Assembly: GCF_021284745.1 (NCBI RefSeq)
Contig: NZ_CP089925.1
Location: 248,001 to 312,000, forward strand
DNA length: 64,000 nucleotides
Direction: 5' to 3'
From: Lysobacter sp. KIS68-7
GTDB taxonomy: Bacteria > Pseudomonadota > Gammaproteobacteria > Xanthomonadales > Xanthomonadaceae
Shown here: positions 28,418 through 35,665 of the stretch, piece by piece
Layout of the letters: every line of letters begins with the position of its first letter
Position numbering within the stretch: the first letter of the stretch is position 1
The notes under the pieces: model-generated
Databases searched by the model: none
What the model saw: the letters and a program-made list of their open reading frames with translations, nothing else
Told to the model about the DNA's origin: nothing
Program-made: the position numbers and the translations under genes

Positions 28418-30295
28418 ATGAAGTACTGCGACCTGGTCATGAAGGGCGGCATCACCAGCGGCATCGTGTATCCCAACGCGGTGCTCGCGCTTGCGAAATC
28501 CTTCCGCTTCAAATCGGTGGGCGGCACGTCCGCCGGCGCGATCGCGGCGGCAGTGACGGCCGCGGCGGCCTTGGGCGACCGGACCAAGCAATCCGGGGCC
28601 GCGTCCGTGCATCCCGATGCGCAGGTGGGCTTCGAAGGCCTCGCGCAGGTGTCTGCGCAACTGGCCACGGAAGGCTTCATCTTCGGCCTGTTCCAGCCGG
28701 CGCGCGGCGCGCGCAATGCGTATCGCGCGCTCGTCGTCATGACGGGAAAGGCATCGGTGTGGCGCAAGTTCGCCACCCTGCTGCTCGCCGTGCTGGCGAT
28801 CGCGCCGCTGGAAATCCTGCTCGTGCTGGGGATGTTGCTGGCCATCGGCTTCTGGTTCGGCGCCGGTGCGGGTGTGGCCGCGACGCTGTTGCCCTCGCTC
28901 GCGTGCGCCTACGGTGCAGGCGCGCTATGCGCAGCGATGCGCGTGGCCCGCGTGGCCCGCGCGAACCTGTTGGGCCTTTGCTCCGGTATGCGCCACCACG
29001 ACGGCGCACCCCCCGCGCTCACCGAATGGTTGCACGACACGCTGCAACGCCTTGCAGGCAAACCGCTCGATGCACCGTTGACCTTCAGCGACCTGCACGA
29101 TGCGCCGCGCTATCCGGACGAACCGGCGACCCCCGGCGCGATCGCCCTGCGCATGATCACCACCGGCGTGTCGCATCGCGAACCGCGCACGCTGCCCTTC
29201 CGCGATGTGCAGTTCTGGTTCCTGCGCGACGAGTTCGATCGCCTGTTTCCGAAGGGCGTGGTGGACTGGATGGTCGCGCACGGCGGCACGCCGCCGGAGG
29301 TTATCGAAGGGAAAACGTATTACGCGCTCCCTGCCGATGACGCCCTTCCGGTCCTCGTCGCCACGCGCATGAGCCTGAGCTTTCCGTTCCTGGTCAGCGC
29401 GGTGCCTTTGCACGAACCGGCGCGCCGCGTGCACGCGAGCGAAACCACGGTGGAGCATGCCGCACCCGCTGCGGAGAAGAGCATCGCCGAAACCGCGGAC
29501 CACCTGGCCACGGGCGGCACGCGCTCCGCGGCCGCGCCTGCCCGCATCGCCGAGTTCCGCAAATGCTGGTTCAGCGACGGCGGCATCTCCAGCAACTTCC
29601 CGATCCACCTGTTCGACGCCGCCCTACCCCTGTGGCCGACCTTCGCGATCGACCTGGTGTACCCCGGCAGCGACGACCGCGCCCCCGCCGATCGCGAAGC
29701 GGTCTCGATGCCCGAGCACAACGCGCAGGGCTGGCAGCGCACTTACCAACCCATTGGCGGGCGCATGGCGGCGTCGGAGTTGCTGGGCTTCCTCTTCGCC
29801 ATCGTCGCCACCATGCAGAACTGGCGCGACTTGCTGCTCGCGCGCGCACCGGGGCAACGCGATCGCATCGTGCATGTCGCTCTCTCGCCCGCCGAAGGCG
29901 GCATGAACCTGGACATGCCGGGCACGGTGCTGGCGGGCATCGCCGCGAAAGGCACGCTCGCAGGCGAACGCCTCTCCGCGTTCGACTTCGACAACCACTA
30001 CTGGATCCGCTGGCGTTGCCTGGCGGCCGCGCTGCAGCAGTACACCCAACAGGTCGCACGCACCAACGATGCACGCCTGCGCGTGACCGACTACGCACTG
30101 GTGTACGCCCTGCCGGAATCGGCGGAAACCGAGCCGCCGTCCTACGCGTTCTCCTCGTACTTCCAGCGCGTGGAGTCCGCGCGCCTGCTGGCCTCGCTCG
30201 TCGCGCAGGGGGAGATCTGGAACGACATGCACCCCGACCTCGTGCAGGGCGCACCGCGCCCCGCGCCGCAGATGAAGGTGACGCCGATCTACTAG
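28418..30295 (+). CDS. Patatin-like phospholipase with membrane segments
   Basis: A 625-residue patatin-family acyl hydrolase. The oxyanion loop is GGITSG (10-15), the nucleophile Ser38 lies in GTSAG, and the dyad Asp is near residue 387 in [10 protein letters not shown]. Between the two halves are strongly hydrophobic stretches (about 110-180) that look like two or more membrane helices. The insertion makes the protein much longer than a minimal patatin. It is probably an inner-membrane phospholipase. AAGGA precedes the ATG. Its TAG shares four bases with the convergent dodecin stop. Confidence 0.85.
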
Positions 30296-30504
30296 GCGTC
30301 GCCCAGCGTGAAGCCGACCTTCAGCGTCACCTGCCAGTGGGCGACTTCGCCGCCTTCGATGTAGCCGCGCGTTTCGACGACCTGGAACCACTTCAGGTCG
30401 CGCATCGTCTTCGACGCACGCTCGATCGCGGTGCGGATCGCATCGTCGGAGCTGCGGGTGGAGGAGCCCGTCAGCTCGATGGTCTTGTACACATGGTTGG
30501 TCAT
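30292..30504 (-). CDS. Dodecin family flavin-binding protein
   Basis: A 70-residue protein with the dodecin pattern: [12 protein letters not shown], then [27 protein letters not shown] and [12 protein letters not shown]. Dodecins form hollow 12-mers that store or buffer flavin. The start overlaps the stop of the upstream secreted-protein gene (ATGA). It is thus the last gene of the same leftward transcription unit that begins with the pilin genes. Confidence 0.92.
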
Positions 30505-30869
30505 TCTCGATCCTTGGTGATGCGCACGCCTTTCACCGAAACCTGGATGTCGACCACGTCCAGGTCCGGTTGCCCGCGCTTCTTCTTCACCAGCACGTCT
30601 TCGCCGTCATCGACCTCGGAGGTGCAGCAGGCCTTCGCTTGCGCGCGGACTGCATCGCTGATGTGCCTGGCGACTTTGTTCTCGCCAGTGCCCTTCTTGA
30701 TGTCGACACTGACCGGGATGCGTTGGCCATCGTCCAGCGCGAGCGTGAACGCAACGGTGCCGTCGCTCTCCGCACCGCCGCTGACCTGCAGGCGCCATTT
30801 GTTGGAGCCGGCGAACGCGTTGCCCGCGATGCAGGCGGACAACAGCAGGGCCAGGGCGATGCGCTTCAT
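30501..30869 (-). CDS. Small secreted protein with paired cysteines (122 aa)
   Basis: It has a signal peptide ([21 protein letters not shown]), then a beta-rich domain with [26 protein letters not shown] pair occurs in [16 protein letters not shown], followed by a basic-acidic tail. It starts 14 nt after the stop of the large prepilin gene, so it is co-transcribed. It may be a periplasmic partner of the pilus proteins. No family recognised. Confidence 0.7.
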
Positions 30870-30883
30870 CTTCGTTCGCGTCC

Positions 30884-33247
30884 TTACGGCAGGGTCCAGG
30901 GCTTGCTCCAGACGATGTTGTTGATCTTGTTGCCGCCACCGTTGGTCGAGCAGCTGGTGATCGTGGCGTAGATTGGACTGCCGACCTGTTCGGCCAACGT
31001 GACGGTCACCAGCGCGCCCTGCGCGATGCTGGCGAAGTTGATCGTGGTCGATTCGGTGTTCTTGTGGTCGTTCACCGCGGCATTGATGGTGCCGTTGACG
31101 CCGTTGGCGGCCGCCGCAGTGACGGTGAAGTCGCGGAAGGTCGGACGCGCCACCGTGTCGGTCGCGGTCCTGCCGCCGCACGTGGCCGTCATGGTTTGGC
31201 TGGTCGTCGTTTCGATCCAGTAGTTCGACACCGTCACCGTCCCCGGTTGCGGCAGCACCGTCCCGGTGGTGGCCACGCAGTGGTTGTCGGACCCCGCTGG
31301 CTTCACGCACTCCACGTTGTTGTCGACGCCGAGCGTGAAGAACACGAACGGGTTGGAGCCGCCACCGCTGACGCGCACGTCGAACGACGGCCCGTTGCCG
31401 CCGCCCACCTGGAAGTCCTGCAAATCGGTGAGCAGGACCGCGTCCGGATCGCCGACGATGGGGTCGCCGTTGTCCGCGGGATCCACGCCCTTGATGTTGG
31501 TCAGCGTGGAGTTCACCGCCACGCCCGAGTTGGAGCGGCGCATCTGCGTCGCGTTGGTCGTCGCGCCGTTGGCCTTGCCGATCGTGCGACCACCCGAGGG
31601 CTGCTGCGCGTTGGTGGACAACAGGTTGCCACTGTTGACCGTGATGACCGCCGGATTGGTCGCACGCCATTCCGCGATCTCGGTGAGGTTCGCGGTGGTG
31701 AACGGCAGGTAGGGCATCACGCAGTCTTCGGCGCTCGTGCCAGTCGGGCATCGGCCTTGCGGCCCGTTGTCGGCGAGCACGTCGATCAGTTTCTGGCGCG
31801 CCTTCTGTTCCAGGTAATCCACGTACAGGCCGCGACCGTGCAGGTAGCGATAGTCGGTGTTGTTCGCGGTGGGAATGACGATCGCCGGCACGTCGAACGT
31901 GGGCGTGTTCGCGAGGAAGGTCGCCTGGCCGTTCGTGGTCGGCGTCGGGCTTTGTCCGTTGTACTGGCGGAGGAACGCCTTCACGAAGTTCGTGTAGTTG
32001 GTCACCGCCGTGGGCGTGGGCAGGCCGCTCTTCGCCGCGACGTTGCTCACCGCCTGCGTTTCCAGCAGGCCGTATTGGCGTTCGTACAGGTCCGACGCGG
32101 TGCGCCAGAAGCCGTCGATGCGGATCATGCGGCAGCTGTCCACGTAGTCCGAGTTGTTCGTGTTGGGAGCAGCCACCAGCACGCCCGAGTTGTTCACGTC
32201 GTACTTGGCCGTGCCCGAGCGCTCCGGATCGAAGCGCACCGCGCCCGTGGCGCCGGTGTCGTGGTGGTCCCGGCAGCATTCCTGGCACAGCGCACTCTGG
32301 TCGACGCCGTTCTTCGGACCGGAGCTGAGGGACTGGCCGGGCGCCGCCGGATTGCCGTTTGGCGTGGTCACCTCGTACGCATCGCCCGTCCACACCGCAG
32401 GCCACATCGCCGTGCGATAGATCTCGGGCAGGTTGCTGCCGCCCGCGCCGTACTTGCACTTGCACTTCACCACTTCGTTGTCGAAGCGCTTCTGGATGAT
32501 CACCGAGCCGCTGCCCGCCGACTGGTAGTTGAGCACGCTGAAACGCGTGCCCACGATCGTCTGGTTGTTCGACTGGCCGATGAGTTCCGGAATGGGGTTG
32601 GTCGTTGCCGAATCGGAATTCGTGGTGCCCAGCGCGATGGGAAGGACACCCGCAGTGGTGGCCGGGCTCGTGGTGCGCACGATCGGTCCGCCGCTCGTTG
32701 CGGCGACGGGATCGGGCGGCACCAGGATGTTGTTCGTCAGCATCATCGAGCTGACGTCGGAGGACAAAGACTGGTTGTGCGGGATGCCCGCGGCGTCGGT
32801 CCACGTCGAGGTGAGCGTGACGCGCTTGAACTGCGGGAGGGACGGATCGGCTTCCACCGTGCCGGAAGCAAAGCCACCGCTGCCGGACCAGACGGTGATG
32901 TTCTGGACCACGGTGAGCAGGCCGAGGCCTGCCTGCACGCGCGGGCAATCGAGCCAGTCGTTCCCGACGCCGTCGCAACCATTGTTGGGAGCGCCTTCGG
33001 TGGACGTGAAAGTCGTCGGCGTCAATGGCGTGAGATTGCCGTAACCGCTGTTGCGCAATCCATCCATGCGCGCGCTCAGCATCGCAGCCACGCGCCCACG
33101 CACCTTCGCGTCCGCGGAGGACCGCGTCATGTTGCCCTGCAGGGCAGCGAGCGCGAGCAAGCCGACCGACAGCACGACGACGGCGATCAACACTTCCAGG
33201 AGGCTGAAGCCAGGCGCCCGGCGATGCATGACGAAGAAGCGATTCAT
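30884..33247 (-). CDS. Very large PilV-like type IV minor prepilin (787 aa)
   Basis: The N-terminus (PGFSLLEVLIAVVVLSVGLLALAALQ) is a classical prepilin peptidase site with Glu at mature position 5 and a hydrophobic helix of PilV type. A normal PilV is about 150-200 residues. Here about 700 more residues follow the assembly helix, rich in N, T, G and S. They include cysteine groups (KCKCKYG, CQECCRDHHD) and Ig-like beta stretches near the end. The protein would ride at the pilus tip and may act as adhesin in place of PilY1, which is not found here. GGAGG lies before the ATG. Confidence 0.8.
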   Translation of the reverse strand: MNRFFVMHRRAPGFSLLEVLIAVVVLSVGLLALAALQGNMTRSSADAKVRGRVAAMLSARMDGLRNSGYGNLTPLTPTTFTSTEGAPNNGCDGVGNDWLDCPRVQAGLGLLTVVQNITVWSGSGGFASGTVEADPSLPQFKRVTLTSTWTDAAGIPHNQSLSSDVSSMMLTNNILVPPDPVAATSGGPIVRTTSPATTAGVLPIALGTTNSDSATTNPIPELIGQSNNQTIVGTRFSVLNYQSAGSGSVIIQKRFDNEVVKCKCKYGAGGSNLPEIYRTAMWPAVWTGDAYEVTTPNGNPAAPGQSLSSGPKNGVDQSALCQECCRDHHDTGATGAVRFDPERSGTAKYDVNNSGVLVAAPNTNNSDYVDSCRMIRIDGFWRTASDLYERQYGLLETQAVSNVAAKSGLPTPTAVTNYTNFVKAFLRQYNGQSPTPTTNGQATFLANTPTFDVPAIVIPTANNTDYRYLHGRGLYVDYLEQKARQKLIDVLADNGPQGRCPTGTSAEDCVMPYLPFTTANLTEIAEWRATNPAVITVNSGNLLSTNAQQPSGGRTIGKANGATTNATQMRRSNSGVAVNSTLTNIKGVDPADNGDPIVGDPDAVLLTDLQDFQVGGGNGPSFDVRVSGGGSNPFVFFTLGVDNNVECVKPAGSDNHCVATTGTVLPQPGTVTVSNYWIETTTSQTMTATCGGRTATDTVARPTFRDFTVTAAAANGVNGTINAAVNDHKNTESTTINFASIAQGALVTVTLAEQVGSPIYATITSCSTNGGGNKINNIVWSKPWTLP

Positions 33248-33261
33248 GGCGTCCTCCTGCC

Positions 33262-35007
33262 TCAGTACGACCGTGCGTCGGTCCACGCGCCCGGCAGGGT
33301 CGAGAAGACCATGCCCGCGTCTTCCACGACGCCCTGCATCACGTTGCCGTCGTAGATGACCGCCGACGTGCCGTTGACCTTGATCTGGCCCTGGATCACG
33401 AGGCCGCCATAAATCGCCGAGCCCGCGTTCATGCGCAGCATTTCGCCGCCCGTGCTGGTGCCGGTATCCGGATCCAACGGCGAGCCGGTATCGCGGATGA
33501 AGACGAAACCGAAGACCACGCCGTGGATCTGCACGGGGCCGTCGAGGATCAACAGCACCGGTGCACTCGGCGTGCCCACTTGTGCGTTGCCGATGTCGCA
33601 ATCGGTCTGGCACCAGATGATGCCGTGGCTGGCGGAAGAGCCCAGCAACGCCGACGTGCCGAGCTGGCTGACTTTCACCAGCGGACGATTGGCGGTGGTC
33701 GGGATGATCCTGTCCGCGATCTTGTACAGGTAGGCCTCGTCCGGACCGACCGACGCGACGGCCGCAGTGTTGTCGGGATTCTGGTAGATCACGTTGGCCA
33801 TCTTCGTTTCGGCGAAGCAGTCGTGGTCGTTGTCCTGCCACGCGGAGACGCCGAACACGAAACGGAACAGATCGGGCGGGAATTCGCAGTTCGGCCACGA
33901 CAGGGAGTCCGAGCGCACGTTGTAATTCGCACCCACCTGGCCGCCGGTGTTGTAGCCCGTCGTGGAGTTGGTCCCCGCGTCGACATCGAGGACGTCGATG
34001 CCCTCGCAGTCGGCCGTGCTGCTTGCGCAACGGTTGTAGCCGCTCGCATCGAAACTGAGCGTCTGCGGCGACCCGTTCGCGTCGCACTTGCAATCGTCGC
34101 AGCGGATCGTGTTCTGGTAGATGCTCGGCGTGTGGCTGCCTTGCGTGTAGCGGAAGAATTCGTCCGCGTAGCAGGTGTTGGGCGTGCCGTGCTTGTCGAC
34201 GTCGTGTCGCGTCCACACCGACACCGGCACGCCCGTCCCTCCCGCATTCGGATTGGTGACGATCTGCAGGTTGCCCGTCACGTCCGCCGTGCCCGACGTG
34301 GTGATCGGCGGCTTGTTGACCAGGCTGTCCGGCACCTTCGGGTACTGGCCGATGGTCTGCACGAGCGTGCTGCCCGCGTTCTCGCCCGGGATGCGCGCGA
34401 CGCTGACGAACGTGACGATGCTCGTGCTGGTGAGCGTGGCGCCCACGCCATTGCCGCACGGAATGCCCGTGTTGAGGCCGTTCGGCGGCGCGGTGGCGAA
34501 GCACACGACGGGCGCGACGCCGTAGGCGACCGTTTCGCCGTTCGGCATCGTGCCGATCTTCGATCCCGCGGCCAACGGGAGCATGTACTGCGTCAGCGCG
34601 GAGTCGAGCCCCGCGATCGTGTTGGTGTTGTCCGCCTTCAGGCGGTACATCGTGCCGCGCCGCACCACGGGCGCCGTGGTCGGGTCGCCGTCGTTGTCGA
34701 AGGTGGCGTTGCTGATCGCACCGCAAGGGAAGGTCGTGTCGTTGTCCGCGCACTTCTCCCACAGCGACGGCGTGATGAGCATGTCGCGATGCTGCCGGAT
34801 CAGGTACTCGAACCCCTGCGCCAGCCCCGCCTCGGCCACGTCCGCGACTTCCTTGCTGCGCATGTCGTTGCCGGTACTGCGCTGTTCGAACAGCCCGACC
34901 TTCAACGCGAACACCGTGAGGATGCCCGCGAGGAGCAGCAGGACGATCGCGACCACCAACACCATGCCGGATTGACGGCGATGGGCAAGCAGGCCATTGG
35001 TGCGCAT
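33262..35007 (-). CDS. PilX-type pilus assembly protein (581 aa)
   Basis: It has a PilX N-terminal pattern: QSGMVLVVAIVLLLLAGILTVFAL, followed by RSTGNDMRSKEVADVAEAGL. It is longer than ordinary PilX (about 200). The extra part is rich in Thr/Asn/Gly and contains C-x-x-C-x-C in RCDDCKCDANG and several other Cys pairs. PilX helps start pilus assembly with the other minor pilins. A strong GAGGAGG precedes the ATG at 35007. It lies 25 nt downstream of pilW. Confidence 0.8.
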   Translation of the reverse strand: MRTNGLLAHRRQSGMVLVVAIVLLLLAGILTVFALKVGLFEQRSTGNDMRSKEVADVAEAGLAQGFEYLIRQHRDMLITPSLWEKCADNDTTFPCGAISNATFDNDGDPTTAPVVRRGTMYRLKADNTNTIAGLDSALTQYMLPLAAGSKIGTMPNGETVAYGVAPVVCFATAPPNGLNTGIPCGNGVGATLTSTSIVTFVSVARIPGENAGSTLVQTIGQYPKVPDSLVNKPPITTSGTADVTGNLQIVTNPNAGGTGVPVSVWTRHDVDKHGTPNTCYADEFFRYTQGSHTPSIYQNTIRCDDCKCDANGSPQTLSFDASGYNRCASSTADCEGIDVLDVDAGTNSTTGYNTGGQVGANYNVRSDSLSWPNCEFPPDLFRFVFGVSAWQDNDHDCFAETKMANVIYQNPDNTAAVASVGPDEAYLYKIADRIIPTTANRPLVKVSQLGTSALLGSSASHGIIWCQTDCDIGNAQVGTPSAPVLLILDGPVQIHGVVFGFVFIRDTGSPLDPDTGTSTGGEMLRMNAGSAIYGGLVIQGQIKVNGTSAVIYDGNVMQGVVEDAGMVFSTLPGAWTDARSY

Positions 35008-35032: not shown

Positions 35033-35665
35033 TCAGATGCCGGTGCCGACCGAACGGACGTAGACGGTCTGGCTCATCGTGCGGTTGACGGCGGCGACGT
35101 TCGCGTCGCTGTCGACCAGGTGCCCGGTGATGGTGACGTCGAACTGGCGCACCACGTTTTCATCCGTGGCCAGCGGTGGCGTGCTCGACGTCGTCGTCGG
35201 GGTGAAGGTGAGGCTGGTGATCTGGACCTGGGCGGAACCGATCGGCGTGGGCGTTCCCGCGGGCGTGCAATTCGCCGGGCGGTTCACCGAACCTTGCAAG
35301 GTGATGCGCCCGTTGTTGTCCAGGCGCACGATGTGCCACGGGCCATCGACGGCACCGTCGTAGGCATACACGATGCAGCTCCCGTTGACGCTCATGGCGC
35401 CGAACGGATTGCCGCCGACGGCCAGCGCGGTCGTCAGCGGATCGCCGACGCCGCGCGCACGGCGCAGGTCGCTGGCCACCACCGCCAACGTGGCGCGCAG
35501 TTCCTGGTTGAGCCGCGTGGACTGCAGCGTCTGCCGGTTGGAACGGATGATCGACAGCACGAGCGCGAGCACGGCGGTCATCACGATCAGACCGAGCGCG
35601 AGCGCGACCATCATTTCGATCAGGGTGAAGCCGCGTGCCGGCTTCCGGAGGCGGGCGGTCAGCAT
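35033..35665 (-). CDS. PilW-type minor prepilin
   Basis: A 210-residue prepilin with cleavage motif RGFTLIEMMVALALGLIVMTAVLALVLS in part. PilW-like LRATLAVVASDLRRARGVGDP follows the helix, and the C-terminal domain is beta-rich. PilW joins the tip-priming complex with FimT/FimU, PilV and PilX. Its start overlaps the fimT stop by 7 nt. The position between FimT and PilX matches known minor-pilin operons. Confidence 0.85.
   Translation of the reverse strand: MLTARLRKPARGFTLIEMMVALALGLIVMTAVLALVLSIIRSNRQTLQSTRLNQELRATLAVVASDLRRARGVGDPLTTALAVGGNPFGAMSVNGSCIVYAYDGAVDGPWHIVRLDNNGRITLQGSVNRPANCTPAGTPTPIGSAQVQITSLTFTPTTTSSTPPLATDENVVRQFDVTITGHLVDSDANVAAVNRTMSQTVYVRSVGTGI

Follow-up and report, generated by a model that had tools for sequence, protein, structure and literature searches.

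The giant PilV-like prepilin of Lysobacter sp. KIS68-7 is encoded in an operon, fimT-pilW-pilX-pilV, and the data suggest that the products of this operon probably form an alternative type IVa pilus tip that is independent of PilY1, made up of a ComZ-like PilX and the giant modular PilV together with FimT and PilW. On the sequence side this reading draws on the operon, the family of relatives, the co-occurrence of the four genes, the pattern of the E5 residue, a set of invariant cysteines and the presence of PilY1 elsewhere. The folds behind it are predicted ones, and from all of these we infer the tip location, the priming, the ligand binding and the sharing of a pilus machine that are set out below. 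The window is the whole stretch of 64,000 nucleotides that was analysed and the features within it are listed in Table 1.

Translation of giant pilV gives an intact frame. AGGAGGACGCC precedes the ATG, and there is a gap of 14 nt between the pilX stop and the giant pilV start. The N-terminus matches the class III signal or prepilin N-terminus profile (PF07963, E 3.5e-6). The PilV equivalog TIGR02523 matches at E 3e-11, over residues 13-65 only (53 positions), and its 44 bits do not reach the curated cut-off of 52.2. The first-pass annotation described a PilV-like prepilin of 787 residues with a standard prepilin N-terminus, rich in Thr, Asn and Gly and containing Cys, and this description holds (T 11.6%, N 7.9%, G 9.8%, 14 Cys). 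A chance ORF or a misannotated fusion is ruled out by the long relatives and the intact Shine-Dalgarno site. Scans for promoters and terminators gave no signal above shuffles. There is a 122-aa ORF (30501-30869) with a signal-peptide-like start that begins 14 nt past the giant pilV stop; it was not found adjoining the operon in relatives, and its homologue in G039 lies away from the operon. A further ORF of 625 aa (28418-30295, + strand) has a GGTSAGA motif and is patatin-like by eye.

Table 1. Positions in the window of the giant-pilin operon, its genes and the parts of the giant PilV
Feature	Position	Strand	Basis
fimT/GspH-like minor pilin, 190 aa	35659..36231	(-)	PF12019 E 4e-8, PF07963
pilW-like minor pilin, 210 aa, overlapping the end of fimT	35033..35665	(-)	PF07963 E 8.3e-10; NF007848 (ppdB-type) E 2.2e-11, below cut-off
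Outsized PilX, 581 aa, without E5	33262..35007	(-)	PF14341 E 5.5e-6, AF2, Foldseek
Shine-Dalgarno AGGAGG, 5 nt upstream of the giant pilV ATG	33253..33258	(-)	
Giant modular PilV-like prepilin, 787 aa	30884..33247	(-)	Translation, profile matches, relatives, AF2
Prepilin leader and pilin module, residues 1-166, E5 present	32750..33247	(-)	AF2, VIA-align
Disordered linker, residues 169-187	32687..32743	(-)	pLDDT <50 in AF2
Cys-rich mixed-fold module, residues 188-386	32090..32686	(-)	6 invariant Cys, highest conservation in the protein
CQECCRDHHD motif, residues 321-330; family signature CxxCCRDHHD	32258..32287	(-)	
Predicted Ig-like (Big_2-type) fold with long insertion, residues 387-617	31397..32089	(-)	VIA-align to LigA
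Predicted C-terminal Ig-like beta-sandwich, residues 618-787	30887..31396	(-)	Weak structural matches

The AlphaFold2 (AF2) model of the giant PilV, made with an alignment of 50 sequences, has a mean pLDDT of 84.5 and a pTM of 0.70. In this model the linker at residues 169-187 is followed by folded modules, so that a second module is joined to the pilin part through a linker, as in modular type IV pilins. VIA-align matches residues 14-166 to a chain of the XcpGHIJK pseudopilus (9a1f_R; Z 7.4, rmsd 3.2, 110 aligned). The module that comes next, residues 188-386, has no recognised domain. Cys 262, 264, 321, 324, 325 and 372 are invariant in 50/50 sequences, and in each of the four comparisons this module is better conserved (59-74% identity) than the pilin module (39-60%). 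The Ig-like folds beyond it are recognised through structure only, in the predicted model: residues 387-616 align with bacterial Ig domains (LigA, 8gyr_A; Z 9.3, rmsd 1.7, 89 aligned, 12% identity) and residues 618-754 have weak matches to adhesin or pilin domains of Gram-positive bacteria (Z 5-7; for example UafA, 3is1, Z 7.2). Compared with the genome's own paralogue, conservation is lowest in the last domain (31% identity). Foldseek with the whole model gave no match at E <=0.001, and a Pfam search of 50 members found no recurrent domain past the N-terminal pilin part. The conservation pattern would fit a conserved hub and a more variable distal head, and the predicted folds, with their modest matches, may indicate what the exodomains do. 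A fusion to about 700 residues of Ig-like sequence had been proposed earlier. The fusion stands, but about 600 residues lie past the pilin module (~166 residues) and the linker, and only 387-617 and 618-787 are Ig-like, 188-386 being a Cys-rich module of mixed fold.

The four genes of the operon are on one strand, spaced by -7 to 25 nt (the pilW start being placed at MLTARLRK). There is no pilY1 inside the operon, as the first reading had it. E5 is present in the window FimT and PilW and in 49/50 giant PilVs (the other has D), and is absent in 44/44 PilX proteins. This pattern, PilX without E5 and giant PilV with it, is the one expected for a GspK-like cap over a GspI-like subunit.

The AF2 model of the window PilX (pLDDT 85.8, pTM 0.80) predicts a pilin fold and a beta-solenoid of the ice-binding type. 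With this model in Foldseek, ComZ of Thermus thermophilus (6qvi) was alone below E 0.001 (E 1.1e-4 and 2.1e-4). VIA-align gives Z 10.8 for PilX against ComZ over 306 aligned residues, with an rmsd of 12.3 owing to differently set domains, and Z 10-11 against ice-binding beta-solenoids; the ice-binding protein FfIBP is known from the literature to be related to the ComZ solenoid (PMC6561018). PilX and ComZ are 10-17% identical, and in a profile search of PDB sequences ComZ ranks first, at E 0.31 only. The predicted model therefore suggests, but does not prove, that PilX and ComZ are homologous, the likeness being at the level of fold and marginal in sequence. ComZ is a proposed tip pilin that binds DNA and is supported by PilA2, itself modelled on GspI (PMC6561018). 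Tt1218 is a GspI-like Thermus pilin whose gene adjoins the large TTHA1220, and the Pfam Tt1218-like family (PF22150) matches 5/50 giant PilVs. Because of these matches and the ComZ-like fold of PilX, PilX and the giant PilV are plausible counterparts of ComZ and PilA2, each of the two being enlarged.

An alignment-based scan of 84,980 species genomes, in which CxxCCRDHHD was one of two patterns used, found 156 relatives of the giant PilV, and 80 of these were kept. The relatives come from Lysobacter, Vulcaniibacterium, Arenimonas, Luteimonas, Idiomarina, Pseudidiomarina, Methylobacter, Methylophaga, Cycloclasticus, Marinobacterium, Thiobacillus, Gallionellaceae and others, and the family is found in many Gammaproteobacteria and some Betaproteobacteria. 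Identities across many genomes are 21-66%, and sizes are 560-1130 aa for the giant PilV and 365-612 aa for PilX. Long relatives are present in about 25 of the 198 genomes of the taxonomic family, within this operon in all loci read, and fimT, pilW, pilX and pilV occur together in 63/63 giant-PilV loci whose upstream sequence is long enough to hold them. Among 369 genomes sampled across the class, only about five, including KIS68-7, match the giant PilV over all or nearly all of its length, and most matches in this sample are confined to the N-terminal pilin module. The pilin is thus common, and the exodomain has been added to it sporadically but over a wide range of bacteria. We found no description of the giant PilV family in the literature searched, which is not proof of novelty.

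There are exactly two giant-PilV copies in 5/5 genomes of the genus searched. In the tree the two copy types fall in different supported groups, each with several members of the genus. pilE-like genes flank many of the loci. Some neighbours differ: an extra fimT-like gene starts just downstream of giant pilV in four loci (L084, L086, L112 and L115), followed by pilW and pilX in L084, possibly as tandem operons in some MAGs; and in Lysobacter dokdonensis an RHS-repeat protein of 1144 aa is encoded directly downstream (L053:11500-14931). In one MAG (L080 / G049:C107) an in-frame TGA interrupts the giant PilV, which is either a pseudogene or an assembly error.

The KIS68-7 genome (3.25 Mb, one contig, 99.97% complete) holds a second giant-PilV operon at ~12.1-17.5 kb of C1 (L033:8122-13492), in which PilV is 802 aa and ~43% identical to the window copy. 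This second operon is flanked by divergent pilE-like and convergent fimT-like genes, and the window copy is without both flanks. The genome also has a canonical cluster (locus L002) in the order fimT-pilV-pilW-pilX-pilY1-pilE, with a small normal PilV, a small PilX and a PilY1 of 1215 aa, and its sole PF05567 match is PilY1 at C1:2901737-2902573 (E 6.8e-39). PilB and PilQ are both encoded, above curated cut-offs, as is a further, divergent PilB/GspE-like ATPase.

PilY1 was searched for in other genomes with two probes, PF05567 and a second PilY1 protein (G572 and G573 with the protein probe only); a phmmer scan with the KIS68-7 PilY1 was too insensitive, missing the PilY1 at L113, hence the use of these two. 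Besides KIS68-7, 18 Lysobacteraceae genomes were searched; PilY1 is encoded elsewhere in each of them except G057 and G005, two genomes of one genus. Neither probe detected PilY1 in Idiomarina loihiensis (complete chromosome), Pseudidiomarina, Salinimonas, Marinobacterium, Methylobacter favarea, a betaproteobacterium, G457 or G199, absence here meaning absence in homology searches, several of these genomes being without a completeness figure. All of these genomes, which have the giant-pilin operon, carry PilB-type ATPases. We also looked for PilY1 just past the operon; the large ORFs flanking the scanned operons of relatives are CcmF, RHS, kinase, UvrB or TPR-like. The PilY1 that adjoins the operon at L113 belongs to a second, canonical cluster. 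At the level of gene content, the searches show that the giant-pilin operon is not tied to PilY1.

Taken together, the data suggest the following mechanism. The pilin module of the giant PilV would polymerise into a type IVa pilus, with the flexible linker, the Cys-rich module and the Ig-like distal domains beyond it. With FimT, PilW and the ComZ-like PilX it would make up a minor-pilin tip complex that does not depend on PilY1. PilX, which is without E5, may cap the tip, as proposed for GspK and ComZ, and the giant PilV may pack beside it, at the position of GspI or of Thermus PilA2. Both large exodomains would then be exposed at the tip, where they would bind a surface or a ligand. In KIS68-7 the complex would be an alternative tip, with a pilus machine in common with the canonical PilY1 tip. 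We put forward only tentatively, as possible rather than probable, the wider idea of a distinct tip class in Gammaproteobacteria and some Betaproteobacteria, in which a two-headed PilX/giant PilV with its CxxCCRDHHD module takes the part of PilY1 and, in Idiomarina for example, is the sole tip system.

We favour a tip for attachment over its main rival, a tip for DNA uptake. In the latter case the operon would be a competence minor-pilin set of the Vibrio cholerae type, in which the ComZ-like PilX and the giant PilV bind DNA for natural transformation. V. cholerae VC0858-VC0861 is fimT-pilW-pilX-pilV, encodes core competence minor pilins and has no pilY1 (PMC13249403, PMC12040237), and the gene order is thus identical. 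The DNA binding of ComZ points the same way, as does the presence of ComEC in 7/7 genomes tested, although ComEC is near universal and so is weak evidence. The GRxR motif has been shown to contribute to DNA binding by FimT (PMC8897410; PMC9956873), and the operonic FimTs of many bacteria outside Lysobacteraceae keep a motif of this type ahead of a Cys (GRIRYC in Idiomarina and GRIRLC in Thiobacillus, for example). The C-terminus of the window FimT, however, is GQASAC, with GQAS where the FimT DNA receptors have GRxR when the tails are compared; the FimT of the own-paralogue operon has GQAT at this place and close relatives have GQARxC. The first Arg of the motif is Gln in many operonic FimTs of Lysobacter, and GRxR is retained in L. 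daejeonensis, in which no PilY1 was found. Among the window proteins, PilX is the strongly acidic one (net -22, pI 4.6), mild acidity is seen in the modules of the giant PilV, and FimT is acidic, in contrast to the basic canonical FimT of the same genome (pI 10). Because the window FimT is without GRxR, a DNA role is weakened for this copy. Judging from the distribution of the motif and the acidic window PilX and FimT, family members outside Lysobacteraceae could plausibly have such a role, which is less likely for the window copy. Overall, we consider a DNA-uptake tip rather unlikely.

The first-pass annotation proposed that the giant PilV alone may combine PilV priming with the role of PilY1 and replace it, and we regard this version as improbable. 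It is in keeping with the large exodomain, with an operon that is without pilY1 and with the occurrence of this operon in genomes where PilY1 is undetected, but those genomes do not show replacement by the giant pilin, the same T-W-X-V operon being present without pilY1 in V. cholerae. There is no match to the PilY1 beta-propeller (PF05567) in the giant PilV. The argument that the missing pilY1 must be made good by the giant pilin is not supported in KIS68-7, where a normal pilV and pilY1 stand in the complete canonical cluster; of the two findings that were to speak against it, such a set elsewhere and a failure of the pilus machine to export the protein, the first is thus present. PilX, a ComZ-like neighbour overlooked at that time, is just as outsized, and any tip function is therefore probably divided between it and the giant PilV. 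As for a new tip design, what stands is a conserved giant modular pilin in a PilY1-free operon, recurring in genomes with PilB and no detectable PilY1; PilY1-free T-W-X-V operons as such were already known, another being ppdAB-ygdB-ppdC of Escherichia coli.

It is very unlikely that the operon serves a type II secretion pseudopilus (GspHIJK-like) and not a pilus. The match of the pilin module to the XcpGHIJK chain would fit this, as would the second, divergent PilB/GspE-like ATPase, but this fold is common to pilin and pseudopilin minor subunits in general, the annotation profiles point rather to PilV, PilX and ppd pilins, the gene order is that of a type IV pilus minor-pilin set and pilE-like genes lie beside many loci. 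Least credible of all is a redundant, decaying paralogue without present function, as two giant operons and a canonical set in one genome and the in-frame TGA of one relative (G049) might suggest, against which stand the intact frame, the invariant Cys and the retention of both copies in 5/5 genus genomes searched.

The PilY1-independent attachment tip that we prefer makes the giant-pilin operon a defined and widespread candidate tip with two large exodomains, which bears on the way in which pili that lack PilY1 hold on to surfaces or DNA. The hosts without detectable PilY1 and the sharp signature of the family make the idea testable. It would also extend a ComZ-type pilin, known from Thermus, to many Gammaproteobacteria and some Betaproteobacteria, where its partner has a main module of no recognised fold.

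Among known systems, V. cholerae VC0858-VC0861 has the fimT-pilW-pilX-pilV order without pilY1 (PMC13249403, PMC12040237); in the window, however, the GRxR-type motif of FimT is lost, and PilX and PilV are outsized (the V. cholerae sizes were not compared). The PilY1-bearing clusters of Pseudomonas aeruginosa, Xylella and KIS68-7 (L002) have the four minor-pilin classes in common with the giant-pilin operon, but in L002 the genes are in another order, PilV and PilX are small and the tip adhesin is a separate PilY1. In the CofB/CofJ system of ETEC, too, a large minor pilin at the tip bears additional beta domains (PMC8179133), although this is a T4b pilus with a trimeric CofB carrying a secreted protein, and the comparison is by description only. 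PilB and PilC of Streptococcus sanguinis, which are modular type IV pilins, are similar in having a pilin module and a large module grafted on through a linker, with tip display predicted (PMC8179133), whereas the graft of the giant PilV is larger, is without a Pfam domain and belongs to a fimT-pilW-pilX-pilV set whose PilX is itself outsized. Finally, ComZ/PilA2 of T. thermophilus has a large pilin with an ice-binding-type beta-solenoid at the GspK/PilX position, beside GspI-like pilins (PMC6561018), but the PilV equivalent there is small with a small subdomain, in contrast with the modular protein of 560-1130 aa here. In summary, modular pilins in a T-W-X-V minor-pilin set are known, and what appears to be new is the giant PilV family with its Cys-rich module together with an outsized ComZ-like PilX.
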